Part shown: positions 6,783 through 20,990 of the stretch, in pieces
Position numbering within the stretch: position 1 is the first letter of the stretch
Layout: every line of letters begins with the position of its first letter
Source of the DNA: Deltaproteobacteria bacterium
Lineage (GTDB): Bacteria; Desulfobacterota; Desulfobulbia; Desulfobulbales; Desulfocapsaceae
NCBI GenBank assembly: GCA_026388715.1
Contig: JAPLJF010000001.1
Span: 1 to 64,000, forward strand
DNA: 64,000 bases
Reading direction: 5' to 3'
Position numbers and translations under genes: made by a program
The notes under the pieces: model-generated
Told to the model about the DNA's origin: nothing
The model's database searches: none
What the model saw: the letters and a program-made list of their open reading frames with translations, nothing else

Positions 6783-7367
6783 TTGTACGACTCTTCTGTT
6801 CTACGAAAAAAGACTCTTGTTGCCCGTGATGGATTGCCTCTGCAGGATCGCCAGGCCATGAGTCGTGAGATTGCCCAAAAAATTCTTCTCCTTGACGAGA
6901 TTGCAACCAGGGAAATACTTTTTGTTTATGTTGATTTTCGCTCTGAGGTCGAGACCCATTTTCTTATTGCTGAGCTTCTCAAGAGAGACAAACGGGTTGT
7001 GGTTCCAGTCACTTTAGTCACTGAGAAGAGATTGCTGTCGGTGGAAATTACTGATTTGGAAAAAGATCTTGTGCCTGGTTATTGTTCCATTCCGGAGCCA
7101 CGAGTGGAGATCAGAAAGAGTCGCTTGATAGCCAGTAGCGACATAGAGACAATTATTCTGCCTGGATCTGTTTTTGATGAGAGAGGAGGCAGATTGGGTT
7201 ATGGCGGTGGGTATTATGACCGTTTCATGGCCTGTGATGCGCCAAATGCCATACGAATTGGTTTGGCATTTGATTTTCAGGTAGTTGACAGGTTGTCCTT
7301 ACAGGCTCATGATGAGCTTCTGGATCTGGTTGTTACTGAAAAAAGAATGATTCAAGTGATCCGATAG
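6783..7367 (+). CDS. 5-formyltetrahydrofolate cyclo-ligase
   Basis: Converts 5-formyl-THF to 5,10-methenyl-THF with ATP, recycling a folate storage form (YgfA/MTHFS family). 194 residues, the usual size. The N-terminal basic helix with SSVLRKKTLVARDGL binds ATP phosphate; the family signature GGRLGYGGGYYDRFM lies near residues 138-152; LPGSVFDERG precedes it. Start is TTG at 6783 with AAAAAGG about 8 nt upstream; no ATG fits. It is followed 24 bp later by a deacetylase-family gene. Soluble, cytoplasmic. Confidence 0.92.
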   Translation: MYDSSVLRKKTLVARDGLPLQDRQAMSREIAQKILLLDEIATREILFVYVDFRSEVETHFLIAELLKRDKRVVVPVTLVTEKRLLSVEITDLEKDLVPGYCSIPEPRVEIRKSRLIASSDIETIILPGSVFDERGGRLGYGGGYYDRFMACDAPNAIRIGLAFDFQVVDRLSLQAHDELLDLVVTEKRMIQVIR

Positions 7368-7391
7368 GAATTTTGTATCGGCAGGAGGGAT

Positions 7392-8456
7392 ATGCGAAAA
7401 ACAGCAGTATTCAGAGATCCTCTTTTTTTAGATCACGACCCTGGTTTTGATCATGTGGAGTCGCCGGAGCGATTAAAGGGTATTTATAAAATTCTTGATG
7501 GCAAGCCATTATCTGGCTGTTTTTTTGAACCAAAATTTAATCCGGCCTCCCATGCAATTATCGGTTTGAATCATTCAGAAGCCCTTATCGCAAGGGTTTC
7601 CGAGACCGCTGGTAAGATATTTGATGCTCTTGACTCTGACACGCATACCTCACCAGATTCCTATGCTGCCGCCTGTCTTGCGGTGGGTGCCCTAATTAAA
7701 GGGGTTGATCTGTTAATGGCTGGTGAGATTGATAATGGTTTTGCCCTTGTGCGTCCTCCTGGTCATCATGCGGAAAGAAACCAGTCCATGGGGTTTTGTC
7801 TGTTTAACAATGTGGCTATTGCCGCCCATTATGCCATACAGATTCTTGGTCTGGAAAGAGTGATGATCGTTGATTGGGATTTGCATCATGGAAATGGAAC
7901 CCAGCATTCGTTTTATGAGAGTGAAAAAGTTCTCTATCTCTCCACGCATCAGTATCCCTATTTTCCCGGGACTGGTTCACTGAAAGAAACCGGCAGGGGC
8001 AAGGGAGAGGGGTTTACGATTAATGTTCCTTTACCTGGATATCAGGGAGATGTGGATTATGCTACTATCTTTGATGATTTGGTGGTTCCCATTGGTCGTG
8101 AATATAAACCGCAACTCATTCTTGTCTCTGCCGGATTTGATATTTGTCGCGGTGATCCCCTGGGGACCATGGAGGTGACTGCACCAGGATTTGCCTATTT
8201 GACCAGAACCCTTATCCGGTTGGCCGAAGAGGTATGTGACGGGCGTTTGTTGCTTACCTTGGAGGGAGGATATAATCTTGACGGGCAGCGAGATGGTATC
8301 CTGGCTGTTCTGGGGGAATTGTATGGTCATATGCTTGAGACTGGTTACCCAACCAATTTGGATGATGATACTGCTACGTATCTGAGTCGGGAAAAATCAT
8401 CTCATCCGGCTATTCTCCAAGCATGGGAGGTTGCAAAAAAATATTGGAAAATGTAA
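7392..8456 (+). CDS. Histone deacetylase/acetylpolyamine amidohydrolase family enzyme
   Basis: A zinc-dependent amidohydrolase of the class II HDAC-like superfamily (354 residues). Visible motifs: RPPGHHAERNQSMGFCLFNN (tandem active-site histidines), VMIVDWDLHHGNGTQ (zinc-ligand Asp and His), LVSAGFDICRGDPLG (second zinc Asp) and LTLEGGYNLDG with the substrate loop. Bacterial members act on acetylated polyamines, acetoin-related proteins (AcuC) or unknown acyl-lysines, so the substrate cannot be set from sequence. Ribosome binding site CAGGAGGG precedes ATG 7392. Likely co-transcribed with the upstream folate gene. Confidence 0.92.
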   Translation: MRKTAVFRDPLFLDHDPGFDHVESPERLKGIYKILDGKPLSGCFFEPKFNPASHAIIGLNHSEALIARVSETAGKIFDALDSDTHTSPDSYAAACLAVGALIKGVDLLMAGEIDNGFALVRPPGHHAERNQSMGFCLFNNVAIAAHYAIQILGLERVMIVDWDLHHGNGTQHSFYESEKVLYLSTHQYPYFPGTGSLKETGRGKGEGFTINVPLPGYQGDVDYATIFDDLVVPIGREYKPQLILVSAGFDICRGDPLGTMEVTAPGFAYLTRTLIRLAEEVCDGRLLLTLEGGYNLDGQRDGILAVLGELYGHMLETGYPTNLDDDTATYLSREKSSHPAILQAWEVAKKYWKM

Positions 8457-13745: not shown

Positions 13746-14330
13746 TTATTCAATAACAAAGTCATCGCGTCTGTTGTATTGATAACTTGTTTCATCTGAT
13801 CCTTCAAAGAGGGGTCTTTCTTCGCCATAGCTGACGGTGCGGATACGGGAGCCGTTAACGCCAAGATCAACCATGTATTTTTTGGCGTTGATGGCACGTC
13901 TTTCACCAAGGGCCAGGTTGTACTCATTAGTGCCCCGGGCATCGCAGTTGCCCTCAATAACGATGGACTCTGATGATGATTTCATGTAGGTGGCGTTGGC
14001 CACCAGATTCTGGGCCATATCCTTACGGATACTTGACTGGTCATAATCAAAATAGATGGGTTGAAACTGCGCAGAAGAGCGGCCATGTTGGCGTTTATAG
14101 TCATCGCTTTGCTCACCTTGACCAAAACTACCATTTTTTTTATTAGTGGAGTCATCCAGTGTACCCTCGGCACTGCCGCTCGTATCTGGATAGTTTACAT
14201 TGCTACCACTCGCGGCATCTGCTCCGGATGTAGGCGGCGTTACTTCTTTTTTACTACAACCTCCGGCAACAAAGGTGAGTGAGCCAATCAGAGTCAGAAA
14301 GAGAAGGGTGTGCAGGGTCTTTTTTTTCAT
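13746..14330 (-). CDS. pal: Peptidoglycan-associated lipoprotein Pal
   Basis: An outer-membrane lipoprotein that anchors the envelope to peptidoglycan within the Tol-Pal system. The signal peptide ends at a lipidated Cys (TFVAGGCSKK, about residue 25). A low-complexity linker rich in Ser, Gly and Asp follows, then a C-terminal OmpA-like domain (about 90-194) with IYFDYDQSSIR, VIEGNCDARGTNEYNLALGERRA and ADLGV-type spacing; these Asp/Arg residues bind diaminopimelate. ATG 14330 chosen; a GTG three codons earlier is possible. tolB and ybgF are not adjacent. A promoter and palindrome lie upstream. Confidence 0.95.
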   Translation of the reverse strand: MKKKTLHTLLFLTLIGSLTFVAGGCSKKEVTPPTSGADAASGSNVNYPDTSGSAEGTLDDSTNKKNGSFGQGEQSDDYKRQHGRSSAQFQPIYFDYDQSSIRKDMAQNLVANATYMKSSSESIVIEGNCDARGTNEYNLALGERRAINAKKYMVDLGVNGSRIRTVSYGEERPLFEGSDETSYQYNRRDDFVIE

Positions 14331-14365
14331 GATTTTCACTTTTAGGAAAGGGAGAAATTGTTGTT

Positions 14366-14391
14366 TTCAGTCCAGTTAAAACTGGACTGAA
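14366..14391. promoter_or_regulatory. Perfect 26-bp palindrome in the pal leader
   Basis: TTCAGTCCAGTT-AA-AACTGGACTGAA is a perfect 12-bp inverted repeat with a 2-bp centre, placed between the predicted pal promoter (14419-14446) and the pal start codon (14330). Either a repressor operator (size and symmetry fit a dimeric regulator) or a leader hairpin. No T-run follows on the minus strand. Confidence 0.6.
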
Positions 14392-14418
14392 TTGGAAGAT
14401 ATAATCTATGCTAACTTT

Positions 14419-14446
14419 ACTATACCCCTAATGGTGCGGACGTCAA
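14419..14446 (-). promoter_or_regulatory. Sigma-70-type promoter for pal
   Basis: On the minus strand TTGACG (14446-14441) and TATAGT (14424-14419) are 16 bp apart. The transcript would start near 14412, giving a leader of about 80 nt that includes the palindrome at 14366-14391. Confidence 0.6.
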
Positions 14447-14518
14447 GGAAATTGAGAGAACAAACTGTGTTCGTGATAAATTTCTTGCTTCCAGTCCTGA
14501 AATGCGGTAAGCGCTTGA

Positions 14519-14533
14519 TTATCTAATAGATAA
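14519..14533. promoter_or_regulatory. Short palindrome upstream of the DUF2721 gene
   Basis: TTATCTA-A-TAGATAA is a perfect 7-1-7 palindrome in the divergent region between pal and the DUF2721 gene. It could be an operator; nothing else supports it. The rest of 14340-14642 holds the pal promoter and palindrome and no gene. Confidence 0.3.
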
Positions 14534-14642
14534 AGTATTATCTATCTTAGTCAAACTGGGAGATAGCTGTTTACCACCACCACACCCCCCAACGTGCCCT
14601 GAATTTTATAAACAGACGGGACTCGCAAGAGAAAATTTTGCC

Positions 14643-15062
14643 ATGGATATCACCTTTACCACACCAGCCCTGCTTTTTCCGGCCGTGACCTTTCTTCTTA
14701 TCGCCTATACTAATCGCTTTCTGGCCCTTGGTTCTCGGATCCGCAACCTGCATGACCGGTATCAGAAAAATCCTGATGCTATCTTGTTCTCTCAGATCAA
14801 GAGTCTGCGTCGTCGGGTGATACTGATCAGGAATATGCAGGCCTGTGGGGTTGCAGGGCTTTTCTGTTGCGTGGTCTGCATGCTGCTTCTTTTTTTGGGT
14901 TGGCAGTTTGCTGGCAAGATCTTGTTTGCGATCAGTTTATTCCTGCTACTTGCCTCTCTTGGTATCTCGTTTCGGGAAATTTTGCTCTCTGTTGAGGCGC
15001 TTAATCTTGAGTTATGTTTCATGGAGAGTAAGGGGAGACTGGGCAAAGAGGATAATCTGTGA
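14643..15062 (+). CDS. DUF2721-type membrane protein
   Basis: 139 residues with the layout of the DUF2721 family: a first hydrophobic helix (TPALLFPAVTFLLIAYTNRFLAL), a cytoplasmic arginine-rich loop (SRIRNLHDRYQ, KSLRRRVILIRNMQ), then two membrane helices (GVAGLFCCVVCMLLLFLGW and ILFAISLFLLLASLGISF). The conserved LHDRY and RRRxxLI parts are visible. No function is known for the family. It stands alone between pal and an orphan secreted gene on the other strand. Confidence 0.75.
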   Translation: MDITFTTPALLFPAVTFLLIAYTNRFLALGSRIRNLHDRYQKNPDAILFSQIKSLRRRVILIRNMQACGVAGLFCCVVCMLLLFLGWQFAGKILFAISLFLLLASLGISFREILLSVEALNLELCFMESKGRLGKEDNL

Positions 15063-15188
15063 GGGGTCCTTACCCTGGCAAGACTGGCTCCTTTTTCTCT
15101 TAGCGGCGCGAACGATCAAAGAAATTTGAGTCCAGGACCGACATGGCAGGCCCAAAGCCGCTGCCAGTTAGTGGCACCCGGCGAGTAC

Positions 15189-16121
15189 TTATCGAAGAAA
15201 CGACTTCAATACTTCTTTTTCGAACGAGTTAAAGGCTGGATCGCTGTCGCTGTCCGATCGTTTGTCGAGCGACATACTCGGCTTCTGGTACTTGATTTCG
15301 CTTCCCGAATATGTTCGCGTAAACAGATTGTAACTTGGACGCCACAGAATACTGACTTTTGATGTCGAATTCGCCGCGGAAATCCAACTCGCCATCGAAC
15401 AATATCCTCCCGGTGCATCGATCAACGAAGATTTTGTCTCATACTTACTGAAAATCTTCGAATCTTGGTAAACCAGTCCACCATCATTGCTGATCACTTG
15501 GGCACTGCCACCATGGTCAATTCGATGAGCCTCTAATCTGGTCGAAGTAAAGGTGTAGCTCGTCCCGTTTTTTAACCGTGTGGTAATTGAAGAAGGAGGC
15601 ATGTTGGTTCCCATCATTTCTGAGCGCCGGAAATAGATCTTCGCGCCGCTATCAATTTGCCCCGCGATGGTATGAACGGCCTCCAGCCACATAGCTTCCG
15701 TCCACCGGTCTTCCAGCATCGGCACCAGAATGATCTTTGTGACCCTGTCCCGCACCTCATTGACATGGGTATTTACCTCTCGGGCACGGAGATTAAGCTT
15801 GTTCAACACATTTGGCCAGGTGTCTTTCATTACCGCCTCCTCGCGCCAGGAAAGGAAGATCGTTTCTACCTTGCTTACGTTGGGGATGTCAAGGAGCGTC
15901 CCGACGTTTTTAAACGGGTCGGTAGGGTTAAAAAACGGCATGAACGCAAATTCGAACTCGCGGCAGCCACTCTCCCTGATCGCAGCGGCACAGTTGATGG
16001 TACTCGTGTCAGACAGCTTGCTAAGACCAACTGCTTGAAGTCCTTTGCGCTCCGCAGCCAAAACATTTCCACAGAGCAGCATTCCAACAAGAGCATATTT
16101 AAAGCATGAAACGATCTTCAT
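15189..16121 (-). CDS. Orphan secreted/periplasmic protein
   Basis: 310 residues starting MKIVSCFKYALVGMLLCGNV with a probable Sec signal peptide cleaved after VLAA-E (about residue 22-24), and a clear ribosome binding site (GGAGGAAG). The mature part has alternating helix and strand segments, including FEFAFMPFFNPTDPFKN, VETIFLSWREEAVMKD, KIILVPMLEDRWTEAM and IYFRRSEMMG. These suggest a TIM-barrel or glycan-active-like fold but no family is recognised; repeated Cys are few (C near NC, SGC, GYC). It stands alone, in an accessory region next to a group II intron remnant, so may be laterally acquired. No function assigned. Confidence 0.72.
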   Translation of the reverse strand: MKIVSCFKYALVGMLLCGNVLAAERKGLQAVGLSKLSDTSTINCAAAIRESGCREFEFAFMPFFNPTDPFKNVGTLLDIPNVSKVETIFLSWREEAVMKDTWPNVLNKLNLRAREVNTHVNEVRDRVTKIILVPMLEDRWTEAMWLEAVHTIAGQIDSGAKIYFRRSEMMGTNMPPSSITTRLKNGTSYTFTSTRLEAHRIDHGGSAQVISNDGGLVYQDSKIFSKYETKSSLIDAPGGYCSMASWISAANSTSKVSILWRPSYNLFTRTYSGSEIKYQKPSMSLDKRSDSDSDPAFNSFEKEVLKSFLR

Positions 16122-16267
16122 TGTCTTCCTCCTTCAAAAGAATCAATTGATGCTCGCAAGACAATCGTGTGAGCGCAATCGGCCAGTTGATGCTGGTCTG
16201 TTATGTGATGATCTTACATCTTGAATTTCTGCGAATATCAAGATGTCAAGCCCGACCCTGTTTTCAT

Positions 16268-16543
16268 GCCCAGCCATCAAAGAAAGCCAGTCAAAAGATT
16301 AAAGACCGGATCGCCGAGCTTACGAAATGAGAACGGACGGTGCCTCTGGAATGGGTTGTGAAGGAAGTCAATTTCATGGTCAATGTCAGTTTTCCAAACA
16401 GGTCATTGTATGAGAAGTATAACCTGTATAAAGTGCCAACAATAGCAGTTTATCTCGCGGTGAAGAACATCGGAAAGCCGTGGGCGGGAGAACTGCTCAC
16501 ATGTTTTGATGAGGGGAGGTTGATGAATGAACAGGCCGGTTGA
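16268..16543 (+). pseudogene. Remnant of a group II intron reverse transcriptase/maturase
   Basis: The frame from 16268 reads PSKKASQKIKDRIAELTK, a TGA stop at 16328, then ERTVPLEWVVKEVNFMVN. This matches the pattern of the maturase (domain X) region of group II intron proteins, which typically read SKKAIKRxKxRIRELT followed by a xxxEVVKxLNxxxxGW block. The frame continues into LYEKYNLYKVPTIAV and a C-terminus ending at 16543; the part from 16394 to 16516 is the 123-bp segment duplicated at 3001-3123. Upstream sequence shows no remaining RT domain. A decayed, truncated fragment. Assignment by pattern only. Confidence 0.5.
16394..16516. repeat. 123-bp duplicated fragment, copy 2
   Basis: Identical over 123 bp to the reverse complement of 3001-3123. 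Here it is embedded in a longer open frame on both sides, so this is probably the parental copy. Two such inverted copies 13.3 kb apart could recombine and invert the segment between them. Confidence 0.9.
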
Positions 16544-16670
16544 CACATAGTAGCCGCGTGCCGCGAGGCGTTAAATAAAAGTCCTGGTCGGTGATCGCTA
16601 AATGAGCTTCCTGCTCTACCTTTCACCCGTTAGAATATACCATGGAGAGTACTTATAAAAAATCAGCTCT

Positions 16671-16703
16671 AAGCTAAGGGCGGCTTAGAGCCGTCCTTAG
16701 CTT
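16671..16703 (-). terminator. Terminator-like hairpin after the Roadblock gene
   Basis: AAGCTAAGGGCGGCT-TAG-AGCCGTCCTTAGCTT forms a 15-bp stem with one G:T pair just after the stop of the minus-strand gene at 16713; on that strand a T-rich stretch (ATTTTTTAT) follows about 8 nt later. The region 16122-16712 otherwise holds only the maturase remnant. Confidence 0.7.
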
Positions 16704-16712
16704 ACTATCCCT

Positions 16713-17915
16713 CTACATTCTAAAGTCAGGGGCCATCAACTCGATTCCCTTGTTTAGCTTCATCTTGGCCATACCTATACTACCTTCCTCTTTAAGTACC
16801 AGCACAAGGTGGATATGGGCCTTGCCCGGTTGGGACTTCAGCGGGTCTGTTCCCTCGTTGAGACAGCGCACCAATATCTGAGCGTGCTCAGCCTGAATAT
16901 GAACCTGTTCCCCTTTGCCCGTTCCCATATCCAACGACGCTTTCTGCGCGTTCATAAGAACGTTATTGGCAAGCACTCCGATTTCATTGAAGTTTATCTT
17001 GGCGTCGGCCGTCAGCATGGCGAGCGACTCACCGGCGGGGGTAAACAGCCCTACTCCTGCAAAACCGTCAAGTGTTGAAAATTCTTTTAATTGGTCCTGG
17101 ACTCCCATGGATAGTTCCTCCTTGTGGTGTGATAAAGCGTTTGTTTTCTGTTTCGTTCCGTGTAATTTAGGTTCCTTAAACATGACATCTAAATATTCTT
17201 CATCTTCGTTTAACGCATGCTGGTCTCTCCTTTTTTCATCATGGTTATCCTCATCTTGGCTCTGGGAAGACTCCATTAAGAGTTTGATTAGGGGTATGTT
17301 TATTTTTCTGGTTTTTTTTTCACATTTCCCGCTCATCTTTAACTCGACATCTCCCCAGGAAATTATCTTGTATGCCGCCTCCAGTCCGGACATGCTCCCT
17401 GTTTCTGCGTTCAAAAGATCGCCGTGACTAAAAAACATCCTGCCGGTCTTGTTTGCCGACGACTTTACGGTAAGGGTGCATGTCTTCTTCTCTAACGCAA
17501 GAAGTTGGAGAAACGACGGCAATGTTATCCCCTGCATATACCCTTGTGTGCCTTCATTGAGCGTGTTTTCTATCATTTCGAATAGAGTGTTAAATTCGAG
17601 CGGCTTTTCTACGTACTGGAAACTACCCATACGGTTCAGCTTTTCCTCTATTTCAGGTGTCCCGTATGCGGTCATGACTATTATGGGGATGGCGAGGTGT
17701 TTGGAGGCGATATATGCAAGAAGCTCAAAGCCGCTCATTACAGGCATATTCAGATCGGTAATAACAAGGTCAAGTTTGACCGATTCTATGACCTTAACAG
17801 CCTCCGCACCATTCAGCGCTTGATAGATCGTCAGGTTGTCAGTGTATGAATTGAGGCCGTCAGTCAGGCTCAGCAAAAATGGTGCTTCATCGTCCACTAT
17901 GAGAATATTTTTCAT
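16713..17915 (-). CDS. Response regulator with PATAN (DUF4388) and Roadblock/LC7 domains
   Basis: 400 residues in three parts. The receiver domain (about 3-120) has phospho-acceptor Asp about 54 in VITDLNMP, Thr in VMTAYG and Lys in VEKPLEF. A DUF4388/PATAN-type domain (about 130-205: LPSFLQLLALEKKTCTLTV, GRMFFSHGDLLNAETG) follows, then an acidic linker and a C-terminal Roadblock/LC7-like domain (about 270-400: DGFAGVGLFTPAGESLAML, NVLMNAQKASLDMG). Such proteins act in signalling to motility, polarity or GTPases, but no GTPase gene is adjacent. A near-consensus sigma-54 promoter 50 bp upstream and paired palindromes indicate control by the neighbouring NtrC-type regulator. Confidence 0.85.
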   Translation of the reverse strand: MKNILIVDDEAPFLLSLTDGLNSYTDNLTIYQALNGAEAVKVIESVKLDLVITDLNMPVMSGFELLAYIASKHLAIPIIVMTAYGTPEIEEKLNRMGSFQYVEKPLEFNTLFEMIENTLNEGTQGYMQGITLPSFLQLLALEKKTCTLTVKSSANKTGRMFFSHGDLLNAETGSMSGLEAAYKIISWGDVELKMSGKCEKKTRKINIPLIKLLMESSQSQDEDNHDEKRRDQHALNEDEEYLDVMFKEPKLHGTKQKTNALSHHKEELSMGVQDQLKEFSTLDGFAGVGLFTPAGESLAMLTADAKINFNEIGVLANNVLMNAQKASLDMGTGKGEQVHIQAEHAQILVRCLNEGTDPLKSQPGKAHIHLVLVLKEEGSIGMAKMKLNKGIELMAPDFRM

Positions 17916-17964
17916 TAATGCGCTTCCTGTAGAAAGAATATAACGTTATACTTAAAATAGATTA

Positions 17965-17980
17965 AGCAATAAGAGTGCCA
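17965..17980 (-). promoter_or_regulatory. Sigma-54 (-24/-12) promoter of the REC-PATAN-Roadblock gene
   Basis: On the minus strand TGGCAC (17980-17975), 5 bp, TTGC (17969-17966), then T: this matches the sigma-54 consensus TGGCAC-N5-TTGCW at every core base. The -12 GC lies 50 bp upstream of the start codon at 17915. The adjacent gene encodes a GAFTGA-containing sigma-54 activator. Confidence 0.85.
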
Positions 17981-18056
17981 ATTTTACTTTATTTGTTATT
18001 TCGATTAGTTAGGTATGGAGTGAGGCGGTTTTGTTGATTGGCTGGTCAGATTGGAC

Positions 18057-18089
18057 GGGTCATATTGACCCTGTGGCTCATTTTGAGCC
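18057..18089. promoter_or_regulatory. Paired palindromes, candidate enhancer sites (UAS) for the NtrC-type regulator
   Basis: GGGTCA-TAT-TGACCC (18057-18071) and GGCTCA-TTT-TGAGCC (18075-18089) are perfect 6-3-6 palindromes of similar sequence, 18 bp centre to centre. A degenerate third site (GGTCA-GAT-TGGAC) is near 18044. They sit about 75-125 bp upstream of the sigma-54 promoter, the usual distance for activator binding, directly after the activator gene. They lack T-runs, so are not terminators. Confidence 0.72.
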
Positions 18090-18094
18090 GGTAA

Positions 18095-19447
18095 TTATGG
18101 TTTGTAACTGTTAAGCCTTCTTTTCAAAGTAGATAACGATACGTCCAGCACCTCGGCTGTCCTTGTTATGTTACCGGATTGCATTTCCAGCACTTTGAAG
18201 ATATGGTTTTTTTCAACCTCTTCGAGGGTGAGGCTGTACCCATTGGCTGCTACTGCGACGCTGGCAAGGCAGCTTTCCGGCATTTCGACGGGCTGTAGAA
18301 GCTCAGACGGACGGACTTCCAGCCCTTTTTTCAGTATTACTGACCGCTCTATGATGTTTTTTAGTTCCCGGACGTTTCCCGGCCAGTGGTACTCCATCAG
18401 CCTTTCTAATTCGGAAGTCGCTAGGTTGATATCGGTCCTGTTTGTGGCTTTTTTGAGCATGAATTCGCAGAGAGCGGGAATATCCTGTTTTCTATGCCTG
18501 AGCGGCGGTATCTCGATGTTTATGACGTTCAACCGGTAATACAGGTCTTTTCTGAACGTTTTCTTGCTTACGGCATCATCAAGGCTCGCGTTCGTGGCCG
18601 CTATGACCCTCGCGTTGACGGTCTTTATGGAATTACCGCCAAGCCTCTTGACCTGTCCATCCTCGAGGACGCCAAGGAGTTTGGCCTGGAGGTGGACAGG
18701 TATCTCCGCTATTTCGTCAAGCAAGAGTGTGCTGTTCTCGGCCATCTCGAATACACCTTTTCTTGAGCAGGTCGCCCCGGTGAAGGCTCCTTTTTCATAG
18801 CCGAACAGTTCGGCTTCTATCAGGTTTTCCGGCAGTGCCGCGCAGTTCACGCTGATTAACGCGGATTTTCTGGAGGGCCCCCTGTAATGTATGGCTTTCG
18901 CAACGATATTCTTGCCGACCCCGGTCTCGCCGGTGAGGAGCACCGGTGCGTTGGATGCCGCCGCAAGGTTGATAAGCCTTGCCGTTTCAGCAAGTCCGCC
19001 AGTCTCGCCTATCAACATGGCCGTGGTGCTTTCCTTGCTGTTGTTGAAGTTCTGGATATTTTCCACCAGTTCGAGGTCAAGGGTCCTGAGAGCCCTTTCG
19101 ATGGCAAGTCTCAGCTCGTCGAGTTCCAAGGGCTTGGAGATGTAGTCATATGCCCCGAACTTGATCGCGTGTATAGCATTGTCGAAGCTGGGATAGGCGG
19201 TACTGAAAATAATCTTCGTACTGTCATTGTGTTTTAGTATGGCCGGGCAGATCTCCCTACCCTCACCGTCCGGCAGTTTCTGATCGAGCAGGACTACGTC
19301 GACCTCGGAACCTGCGCATATCCGGAGACCCTCCGCCCTGGTATGGGCATTGCTGATTTTGAGGTTTGGAATTACGAGGTGCTCCTTCACAAGTTCGCAA
19401 AAGTATTTGTCGTCATCGATCAAGAGAAGGTGTCTGTTTCTGGTCAC
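18095..19447 (-). CDS. Sigma-54-dependent response regulator (NtrC family)
   Basis: 450 residues. Receiver domain (about 5-120; phospho-acceptor Asp about 55 in VVLLDQKLPD, Lys in SKPLEL). AAA+ sigma-54 interaction domain (about 145-375) with Walker A GETGVGKN, the sigma-54-contacting GAFTGA loop, Walker B LLLDEIAEIP, and R-finger region FRKDLYYRLNV. A Fis-type helix-turn-helix at the C-terminus (EKNHIFKVLEMQSGNITRTAEVLDVSLSTLKRRL). GTG start at 19447, one base after the kinase stop, so tightly co-expressed with it. Likely activates the gene at 16713-17915 through the sites at 18057-18089. Confidence 0.94.
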   Translation of the reverse strand: MTRNRHLLLIDDDKYFCELVKEHLVIPNLKISNAHTRAEGLRICAGSEVDVVLLDQKLPDGEGREICPAILKHNDSTKIIFSTAYPSFDNAIHAIKFGAYDYISKPLELDELRLAIERALRTLDLELVENIQNFNNSKESTTAMLIGETGGLAETARLINLAAASNAPVLLTGETGVGKNIVAKAIHYRGPSRKSALISVNCAALPENLIEAELFGYEKGAFTGATCSRKGVFEMAENSTLLLDEIAEIPVHLQAKLLGVLEDGQVKRLGGNSIKTVNARVIAATNASLDDAVSKKTFRKDLYYRLNVINIEIPPLRHRKQDIPALCEFMLKKATNRTDINLATSELERLMEYHWPGNVRELKNIIERSVILKKGLEVRPSELLQPVEMPESCLASVAVAANGYSLTLEEVEKNHIFKVLEMQSGNITRTAEVLDVSLSTLKRRLNSYKP

Positions 19448-19448
19448 G

Positions 19449-20519
19449 TCAGCAGGTCCCTTCGGGTAATGAAATGGTTATGGTCGTGCCAATATTCTCG
19501 GCGCTTTTCACGTCTATGGTGCAGTTCATGTTGGCCAGCATTTTCCTCACTATCGGCAATCCAAGCCCTGTTCCCTGTTCTTTGGACGTATAAAACGGTT
19601 TGAATATCTCCTTCATCTGCTCCGGCGTTATTCCGCAGCCATTGTCCTTTATCTGCACCCATACAAGGCTTGAAGATCCGGTCACATTTATGGTTATCCT
19701 TCCATCTTCTCTCCCTTTGAGGGCATCGACCGCGTTGACCAGGATATTCAACATTACCTGCTGGAGCAGGCGCGGGTCGGTCATGACCCAGTTGACCCCC
19801 ATCTGGGCTTCATATGACAGCGTTACCCCTTTTTTCAAGAAGTCTTCTCCGATAAGCCGGAGAAGCTTGGCAAGGAGGTCGGATACGTCCACTTTCTCGA
19901 TTTCGGCCCTTTCGTACAGACTGAAGCTCTTTAGCGACTTAAGCAGGTATTCAACCCTTAATATCTCGTCAAGTGATCTTTCCACATACTGGCTTATGAC
20001 TTCCTGGCTGAACTTGCTTAGATTGTTTTGCAATACACTCAGCGTCATTTTTATCGAGTTGATCGGGTTGCCGATCTCATGCCTGATGCCGGAGAATATG
20101 TATCCAACATTGTCCATGATTTCCATTGACTCGGTTATGGATTCCAGTCTTTTTTGGTCGGTTATGTCGGTTAAGAAAATCCAGAGTAAATTGTTGTTAA
20201 GGAAGTAGGCCGTATAGCCACATATGATGCCGGAAGGGTTAATGGTAAACTGGCCGGTTTTTTTCTTCTTCAGCTCTGGGTCCAATGTGCCCAGCGATAG
20301 CAGAGAGTGGAAATAGCTATAACTATACGGGTTTTCCACATGCTTGAAGAACGACAATGCACATGGGTTTACAGAAATGATTTCCTCTTTCTTGATGTCC
20401 AGGATCATGACGCCCGAGTCGATGGTGTCGCATATCTGGGTGTAGGGGCATGTTGCGGGGCTTGTGCCCTTGATTAGCAGACAGTGCGGGCCTTCGGTCT
20501 GGTGAACGCATGTTGTCAT
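19449..20519 (-). CDS. Cytoplasmic PAS-type sensor histidine kinase with N-terminal cysteine cluster
   Basis: 356 residues, no membrane segment. The N-terminus has four cysteines and two histidines within 30 residues (C4, H6, H12, C13, C24, C30), reminiscent of a metal or redox centre. A PAS-like domain follows (about 33-125, DTIDSGVMILDIKKEEIISVN), then HisKA with phospho-acceptor His in SGIRHEIGNPINSIKM (about 150) and HATPase_c with QQVMLNILVNAVDAL, IKDNGCGITPEQ and GTGLGLPIVRKML. Cognate of the NtrC-type regulator directly downstream (1-bp gap). Signal unknown; the cysteines suggest redox, metal or sulfur sensing, which is inference. Confidence 0.92.
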   Translation of the reverse strand: MTTCVHQTEGPHCLLIKGTSPATCPYTQICDTIDSGVMILDIKKEEIISVNPCALSFFKHVENPYSYSYFHSLLSLGTLDPELKKKKTGQFTINPSGIICGYTAYFLNNNLLWIFLTDITDQKRLESITESMEIMDNVGYIFSGIRHEIGNPINSIKMTLSVLQNNLSKFSQEVISQYVERSLDEILRVEYLLKSLKSFSLYERAEIEKVDVSDLLAKLLRLIGEDFLKKGVTLSYEAQMGVNWVMTDPRLLQQVMLNILVNAVDALKGREDGRITINVTGSSSLVWVQIKDNGCGITPEQMKEIFKPFYTSKEQGTGLGLPIVRKMLANMNCTIDVKSAENIGTTITISLPEGTC

Positions 20520-20990
20520 TACAGGTTTATCTCCTTTGCGTTTGCTCGTACATGGTGGACATCAAGGAAAAAAAGGGGGACGTTCTTCATATTTAAAGTT
20601 TTGTGATATTTCTCACGAGAAATAAAGAGGGAATATTTTTGCTCTTGTCAAAATCCTCTCGTTCAATGTCCTGGACGATAACCTGTTTCAAGTTGTTGAA
20701 TTTGTAATTGCGTTATGAATAGATGGATTTTCTGGTTATTTGCCCATTGATTTTAAGATATGAGAAAATCAATCTTTTAGTCTATTCACGTATTGCATTT
20801 TCTCTGGTTGTTGTTTTCCGAATCTGACGATATTATGTGATGGGATATGGAAAGTCAAAATAAATAATAAACTGGAATTTCATTCGAATTCCAATCTCTG
20901 GTTCATGAATCTGTCATGTTATAGGTTTTTCCTCTATCTAGCGGCAGGCGATGAGCTTCCTGGTTTTTCTATTGAGTGGTGTATTGAATC
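20520..20990. other. 471-bp divergent intergenic region
   Basis: Between the kinase (minus) and PBP1b (plus). AT-rich with no supported gene. It holds a perfect palindrome, ATTTCTC-AC-GAGAAAT, at 20608-20623, about 90 bp upstream of the kinase start, which could be an operator for the kinase-regulator operon. No sigma-54 promoter was seen here on either strand. Confidence 0.5.

Follow-up and report, generated by a model that had tools for sequence, protein, structure and literature searches.

A conserved, portable-looking two-component module with a putative sigma-54 promoter before a predicted receiver-PATAN-Roadblock gene

Closest described systems and the HK-ACT-OUT locus

In the UirS/UirR/LsiR model of Synechocystis, the kinase UirS phosphorylates UirR, and UirR drives expression of the PATAN-CheY regulator LsiR, which in turn sets phototaxis; conflicting mutant data are reported too (PMC5812497). 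We compare this and other systems, in each case within the parts of the cited papers that were available, with a locus in a 64,000-nucleotide (nt) stretch of Deltaproteobacteria bacterium (family Desulfocapsaceae; assembly GCA_026388715.1, contig JAPLJF010000001.1, positions 1 to 64,000), which we call the window. On the minus strand at 16713-20519 lie, in this order, genes for a histidine kinase (HK), an NtrC-type activator (ACT) and a receiver (REC) protein with a PATAN domain and a predicted Roadblock domain (OUT). All three open reading frames (ORFs) are where a first-pass annotation, made from the letters alone, had placed them (Table 1). The parallel with UirS/UirR/LsiR is that a kinase and a DNA-binding response regulator drive the gene of a PATAN response regulator; here the architecture and the promoter evidence agree with that plan, and we do not claim membership. 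The available text describes no NtrC-type activator or sigma-54 site for that system and no Roadblock domain for LsiR, and it calls LsiR non-phosphorylatable (PMC5812497), whereas OUT keeps its phospho-site.

The conservons of Actinobacteria (AGPS; CvnA-D) combine a histidine kinase-like protein, an MglB-type Roadblock protein and a Ras-like GTPase (PMC13343842; PMC4316618). They share with our locus the coupling of a histidine kinase-like protein with a Roadblock protein. As described in the parts available, they have no response regulator and carry the GTPase in the operon, whereas here the Roadblock domain is fused to receiver and PATAN domains and the GTPase lies elsewhere. In the MglA/MglB/RomR system of Myxococcus, a receiver protein and a Roadblock protein act on MglA (PMC4316618), and the C terminus of OUT matches MglB structures. 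Those are separate proteins, in contrast to the single fused OUT, and the available text mentions no dedicated sigma-54 supply circuit. Wuichet and Sogaard-Andersen also note that some mglA genes have PATAN genes in their vicinity, and refer to an association with MglB homologues made in earlier work (PMC4316618).

Compared with systems of the AtoSC/ZraSR/NtrC type, HK and ACT best fit the AtoS and AtoC models, and enhancer dyads and a -24/-12 element are common to both; the scores fall far under the NCBIfam cut-offs (AtoC 370 of 714 bits, AtoS 184.8 of 646), and here one more receiver protein is the sole conserved target found. NmpRSTU of Myxococcus likewise has an NtrC-like regulator with two enhancer sites and a sigma-54 site, and the layout of the hybrid kinase NmpS resembles the REC-PAS-kinases of several family loci. 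As far as the available text goes, it differs in its operator (GCGCA-N5-TGCGC), its oxygen-use regulon and its binding at pilR (PMC11841059). A literature search, with most subscription papers outside its reach, found no report of a sigma-54 circuit with a REC-PATAN-Roadblock target, and the papers on the sigma-54 regulome and the response regulators of Desulfovibrio mention neither DUF4388 nor Roadblock in their main text. The first-pass annotation had called the design one it did not know as described. This stands for the full gene set but not for its parts, since the partly available sources give a close precedent for the transcription layer (UirS/UirR/LsiR), links between PATAN and MglB, and the conservons. 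The module is a variant on known two-component plans, not a new category.

Putative sigma-54 promoter and operator dyads before OUT

The OUT gene of the window is preceded by a full-consensus TGGCAC-N5-TTGC element with a score of 17.7, which 0 of 400 shuffles of the preceding 200 nt reached. The full consensus had been recognized at first pass, with coordinates (17965-17980) that were off by 1 nt. A -24/-12 matrix with a threshold score of 10 was run over the 200 nt ahead of OUT in each of 53 loci. Sites scoring at least 10 were present in 24/25 ACT-bearing loci and in none of the 28 OUT loci lacking ACT. Split by gene order, they were found in 22/23 loci with ACT upstream of OUT and in both loci where ACT follows later (L222, L223). 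The sole miss among the ACT-bearing loci, L215, has TGGCACATCCCCTGC 234 nt upstream, beyond the scored 200 nt.

The count includes all 21 OUT matches with at least 400 bits. L227 was counted as ACT-less, with a sigma-54 activator-like ORF 4 kb away that is below threshold, and L230 and L231 as ACT-bearing, with a distant activator (36-38% identity). Outside the count are L161, where HK and ACT are present and OUT is broken (also outside the 25 operator rows below); L048, L052 and L055, which are the same contigs or places as L153, L216 and L217; L053, L054, L056-L058 and L059-L125; the short loci L001-L025, several of which are the same places as scored loci and several not; and many weaker OUT-like matches. 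Four points weigh against the contrast between the two groups: the matrix was hand-set from the general consensus; the loci, picked for their similarity to OUT, do not count as independent; a single set of genus loci supplies ten of the 28 ACT-less rows (L027, L036-L044); and the ACT-less L036, L038 and L040 score 9.2, the highest of the 28 and just below threshold (shuffle p 0.04-0.05).

The two perfect palindromes reported at 18057-18071 and 18075-18089 are exact. Both lie just beyond the ACT stop (18095), with centres ~84 and ~102 nt upstream of the -24 element, and as YCA-WWW-TGR dyads before OUT they number 2 observed versus 0.03 expected. Dyads of the TCA-WWW-TGA type go with the recognition helix of the activator: they occur in 8/8 loci whose activator has a TLKR or TMKR helix (the window, L049-L051 and L222-L225, of which L224 and L225 are close kin) versus 1/17 of the others (Fisher p 8e-6, shared ancestry ignored). 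Each TLKR/TMKR locus has 1-3 YCA-WWW-TGR dyads 61-141 nt upstream of the -24 element, against 0.01-0.07 expected. We recorded the motif from the window, L050, L051 and partly L046 and L049 prior to finding L222-L225, each of which carries at least one strict TCA-WWW-TGA. The widening to YCA/TGR was chosen after L222-L225 had been inspected, and the strict form gives 7/8 versus 1/17 in the same output. Weighing against the pairing, L046, with the other helix type, has CCAAAATGA ~250 nt upstream of its -24 site; this match falls outside the 170 nt scored, and including it makes the second count 2/17. A class-A dyad (~TGTC-N9-GWCR) in the other-helix loci, read by eye and after the fact, is not counted as evidence.

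The HK stop and the ACT start are 1 nt apart, and 179 nt separate ACT from OUT. With all three genes on the same strand and a gap of this size, OUT could be read through from HK-ACT, the promoter and dyads being chance or leftover. We hold this to be highly improbable, given the distribution of the sigma-54 site (24/25 versus 0/28) and the way helix type and operator type go together. The first-pass annotation had staked the circuit on conservation of promoter and palindromes in orthologous loci, and that same site distribution, with the 8/8 versus 1/17 split of the dyads, bears it out. The terminator-like stem that follows OUT suggests that its transcript probably covers a single gene.

The strict tandem operator (dyads 3-17 nt apart) occurs once in the 2.97-Mb assembly to which the window belongs. 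This genome is 94% complete, which weighs against uniqueness because a further copy of the operator may have escaped detection. Outside the module, five ORF clusters are shared by 3-5 of 23 loci and none by more, which together with the single tandem operator fits one dedicated target. ACT might yet be a wider regulator with OUT as just its nearest target, weaker single operators elsewhere forming a regulon. NtrC-type activators can have regulons, NmpR with several operons being an example in the available text, and the uniqueness speaks for the strict tandem pattern, which alone was searched; we regard a wider regulon as unlikely. That HK, through ACT, would control OUT transcription as a closed module with one dedicated target is strongly supported by promoter and operator conservation, the helix-operator pairing and the single tandem operator, in keeping with the sigma-54 circuit first proposed.

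The activator has the complete Pfam set (Response_reg, Sigma54_activat, HTH_8) and an intact GAFTGA from residue 220, so its identification as NtrC-type holds. Its phospho-site (D11, D12, D55, T83, K105) is kept in 5/5 aligned sequences, its gene adjoins that of a HisKA/HATPase kinase, as expected for the NtrC family, and an rpoN gene is present in the same genome. HK matches HisKA and HATPase_c, with HEIGNP from residue 147. It had been described as a Cys-rich PAS kinase; the kinase assignment is sound, the PAS match is sub-threshold (PAS_8, E 0.0012), and the Cys-richness is modest (C4, C13, C24 and C30, with C24 alone invariant in six aligned kinases). By-eye inspection showed no membrane segment in HK.

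Table 1. Coordinates of module features in the window
Feature	Coordinates	Strand	Description	Basis
OUT	16713..17915	-	Receiver (Pfam 4-116), DUF4388/PATAN (124-223), low-confidence linker (~236-265) and predicted Roadblock/LC7-fold domain (~266-400)	Pfam, AlphaFold2 (AF2), Foldseek
ACT	18095..19447	-	REC-AAA+(GAFTGA)-HTH_8 NtrC-type activator, recognition helix LSTLKRR	Pfam, alignment
HK	19449..20519	-	HisKA-HATPase kinase, weak PAS match, short cysteine-bearing N terminus	Pfam
Putative sigma-54 -24/-12 promoter TGGCACTCTTATTGC	17966..17980	-	65 nt from OUT start	Sequence, matrix score
Putative promoter-proximal operator dyad GGGTCA-TAT-TGACCC	18057..18071	no strand		Sequence; dyad type goes with recognition helix
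Putative promoter-distal operator dyad GGCTCA-TTT-TGAGCC	18075..18089	no strand		Sequence
Strong terminator-like stem past OUT	16664..16704	-		Sequence

Predicted fold, possible targets and kinase pairing of OUT

Pfam finds Response_reg (4.5e-22) and DUF4388 (9.6e-13) in OUT and has no Robl_LC7 match in the window's protein. Among 16 aligned homologues, Robl_LC7 matches two at E 0.1 or better (best 3e-16), by eye L050 and L051. The Roadblock domain named at first pass is thus absent as a Pfam match in the window and upheld by fold prediction, on which its membership rests. In the full-length AF2 model the C-terminal domain is confident, and folded alone from the 16-homologue alignment it reaches a predicted local distance difference test (pLDDT) of 91.8 and a predicted template modelling score (pTM) of 0.86. 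Its predicted order, helix-strand-strand-helix-strand-strand-strand-helix, fits the MglB/Roadblock fold. Every one of the 50 matches listed by Foldseek is a Roadblock, MglB/MglC or Ragulator/LAMTOR-type chain, the last type of which we take to be Roadblock-fold as well; 30 of the 50 are MglB, and the query TM-score goes up to 0.77. A profile from the C-terminal alignment also matches Roadblock chains by sequence (4.5e-9). On the other side, the alignment holds canonical-looking Roadblock homologues, and the fold prediction and the profile are therefore not fully independent of them. We consider a Roadblock/LC7 fold for the OUT C terminus established by prediction.

In the OUT homologues of L050 and L051 (Nitrospirota) the C-terminal domain is only 22% identical to that of the window and looks more like a canonical Roadblock domain, and it may have been exchanged while REC-PATAN stayed. 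A free-standing copy of the OUT linker and Roadblock end (window ~16653-17161) lies on contig C30 of the window's own genome (L026:7549-8091), with 88% identical DNA over 520 nt that extends ~60 nt beyond the OUT stop. This copy matches Robl_LC7 at E 0.06, has just upstream a frame that by eye resembles an IS3-type transposase remnant, and looks like a recent partial duplication. L223 has a separate 135-aa ORF that is 57% identical to the OUT C terminus, without a Pfam Roadblock match, and L221 (G381) has a 740-aa frame in which an OUT-like REC-DUF4388 region stands behind 354 residues without a Pfam domain.

No small GTPase gene lies within the three-gene module. Contig C30 encodes a Roadblock protein (at the Pfam cut-off) followed by a Ras-family GTPase (L171:6672-7768, the GTPase at 7163-7768), which we take to be MglA-like, and the pair is likely MglB-MglA. 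A candidate partner for OUT thus exists in the same genome; counting against it, this gene is unlinked to the module. PATAN domains bind the pilus motor PilB in Synechocystis, according to the available part of PMC10519157, and by this analogy a pilus motor would be an equal candidate to the GTPase as the target of OUT.

The phospho-site of OUT (D8, D9, D54, K104) is kept in 16/16 aligned homologues, with residue 82 being T or S. In L027, L036-L045, L047, L226 and L228, which lack ACT, a kinase related to HK at the family level lies directly beside an OUT-like receiver, and these pairs suggest kinase-to-OUT signalling. In L027 and L036-L044 (genus) and L045 (family), the kinase directly upstream of the OUT paralogue is larger (545-792 aa), with PAS and GAF domains in L027; these paralogues have neither ACT nor a sigma-54 site above threshold. 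The kept phospho-site and the ACT-less pairs would also suit an OUT that is mainly a phosphate sink, its receiver draining HK phosphate and shutting ACT off as a self-limiting pulse generator while the Roadblock end merely dimerises or localises. Such a sink needs no PATAN and Roadblock domains, yet both are kept full-length in 13/93 family genomes, and we think this role quite unlikely.

The first-pass annotation had one kinase controlling two layers, production and perhaps activity of OUT. The transcription layer held up, and the shared-kinase residue test lent the other no support: kinase-facing residues shared by OUT and ACT are not above background, with ACT 7th of 31 receivers, which weighs against a common kinase. 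This comparison covered 30 of 57 receiver-match loci and 27 distinct strings (L265/L280/L286, L267/L268 and L264/L266 being identical), among which ACT is 5th. The alpha1 and beta5-alpha5 residues of OUT fit the resident paralogue OUT' best of the 31 receivers (57 versus 20 for the next). Because the interface residues single out OUT' and not ACT, two-layer control is something we infer; it is the ACT-less kinase-OUT pairs that make phosphorylation of both ACT and OUT by HK plausible. The same fit would favor HK', the resident paralogous kinase directly upstream of OUT' (L027; G000 contig C2), as the kinase of OUT in place of HK, with the module setting OUT supply only and coupling two pathways. 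The fit may instead reflect shared ancestry, the OUT and OUT' receivers being 50% identical, and HK and HK' share 48% identity across residues 118-352, so the data cannot separate the two kinases; we find the case for HK' doubtful.

Distribution, proposed mechanism and meaning

The HK-ACT-OUT set is shared by loci carrying the labels Thermodesulfobacteriota, Nitrospirota and Myxococcota, and it is found in metagenome bins of Nitrospirota, Desulfosudis and Deltaproteobacteria, one of the latter belonging to Myxococcota by tree labels. The 13 family genomes with full-length OUT score at least 566 bits (next best 304). Within the genus, full-length OUT is found in the window's own genome only, among 17 genomes searched, some of them 55-76% complete. 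The window's HK and ACT score highest against Nitrospirota and family-f25 loci, and the tree leaves the window's position open. This patchy occurrence suggests transfer between lineages, and by these comparisons HK/ACT/OUT is a conserved, portable-looking regulatory module across phyla.

The cassette is absent from 8 genus stretches (2.6-10 kb) upstream of the PBP1b gene, of which only L250 is anchored on both sides, at PBP1b by its coordinates; there, between the OmpA/DUF2721 genes and the PBP1b gene (window 13746-20990), G008 has other genes. Beside the module, window 15189-16121 (minus strand) encodes a protein of 310 aa whose start looks by eye like a signal peptide and which neither Pfam nor NCBIfam matches. 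Ten neighbour proteins run against Pfam gave no lead, and we set conserved neighbours aside as a clue to function. In L222 (G348) and L223 (G313), OUT comes first with HK and ACT downstream, an order in which ACT may control its own operon. In L161 (G090), OUT seems split across frames (decay or assembly error).

We consider it probable that this is a closed two-component module with OUT as a receiver-gated adaptor tuned by phosphorylation. HK would sense a signal, probably cytoplasmic, and phosphorylate ACT, which would assemble on the tandem TCA-WWW-TGA dyads just past the end of its own gene, driving sigma-54 polymerase at the -24/-12 element. The product, the predicted REC-PATAN-Roadblock protein OUT, would switch either a type IV pilus/motility motor or a Ras-like (MglA-type) GTPase into another state. 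Once OUT is made, its activity would be tuned by phosphorylation, whether from HK or from the resident paralogue of HK. A more specific version, put forward tentatively as it is rather unlikely, has an apparently mobile two-layer switch: a single kinase would govern how much of a receiver-gated Roadblock protein is made (through ACT and sigma-54) and how active it is on an MglA-type GTPase (through the OUT receiver), and the module would have stayed together as a unit across Desulfobacterota, Nitrospirota and Myxococcota while operator and helix changed in step.

The locus is a complete, portable-looking unit with signal supply and use in ~4 kb, and no conserved target other than a further response regulator was found. 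The two operator classes and two recognition-helix classes form a natural series for activator specificity. If OUT acts on MglA-type GTPases, the module would link sigma-54 gene control directly to a bacterial Ras-like switch.

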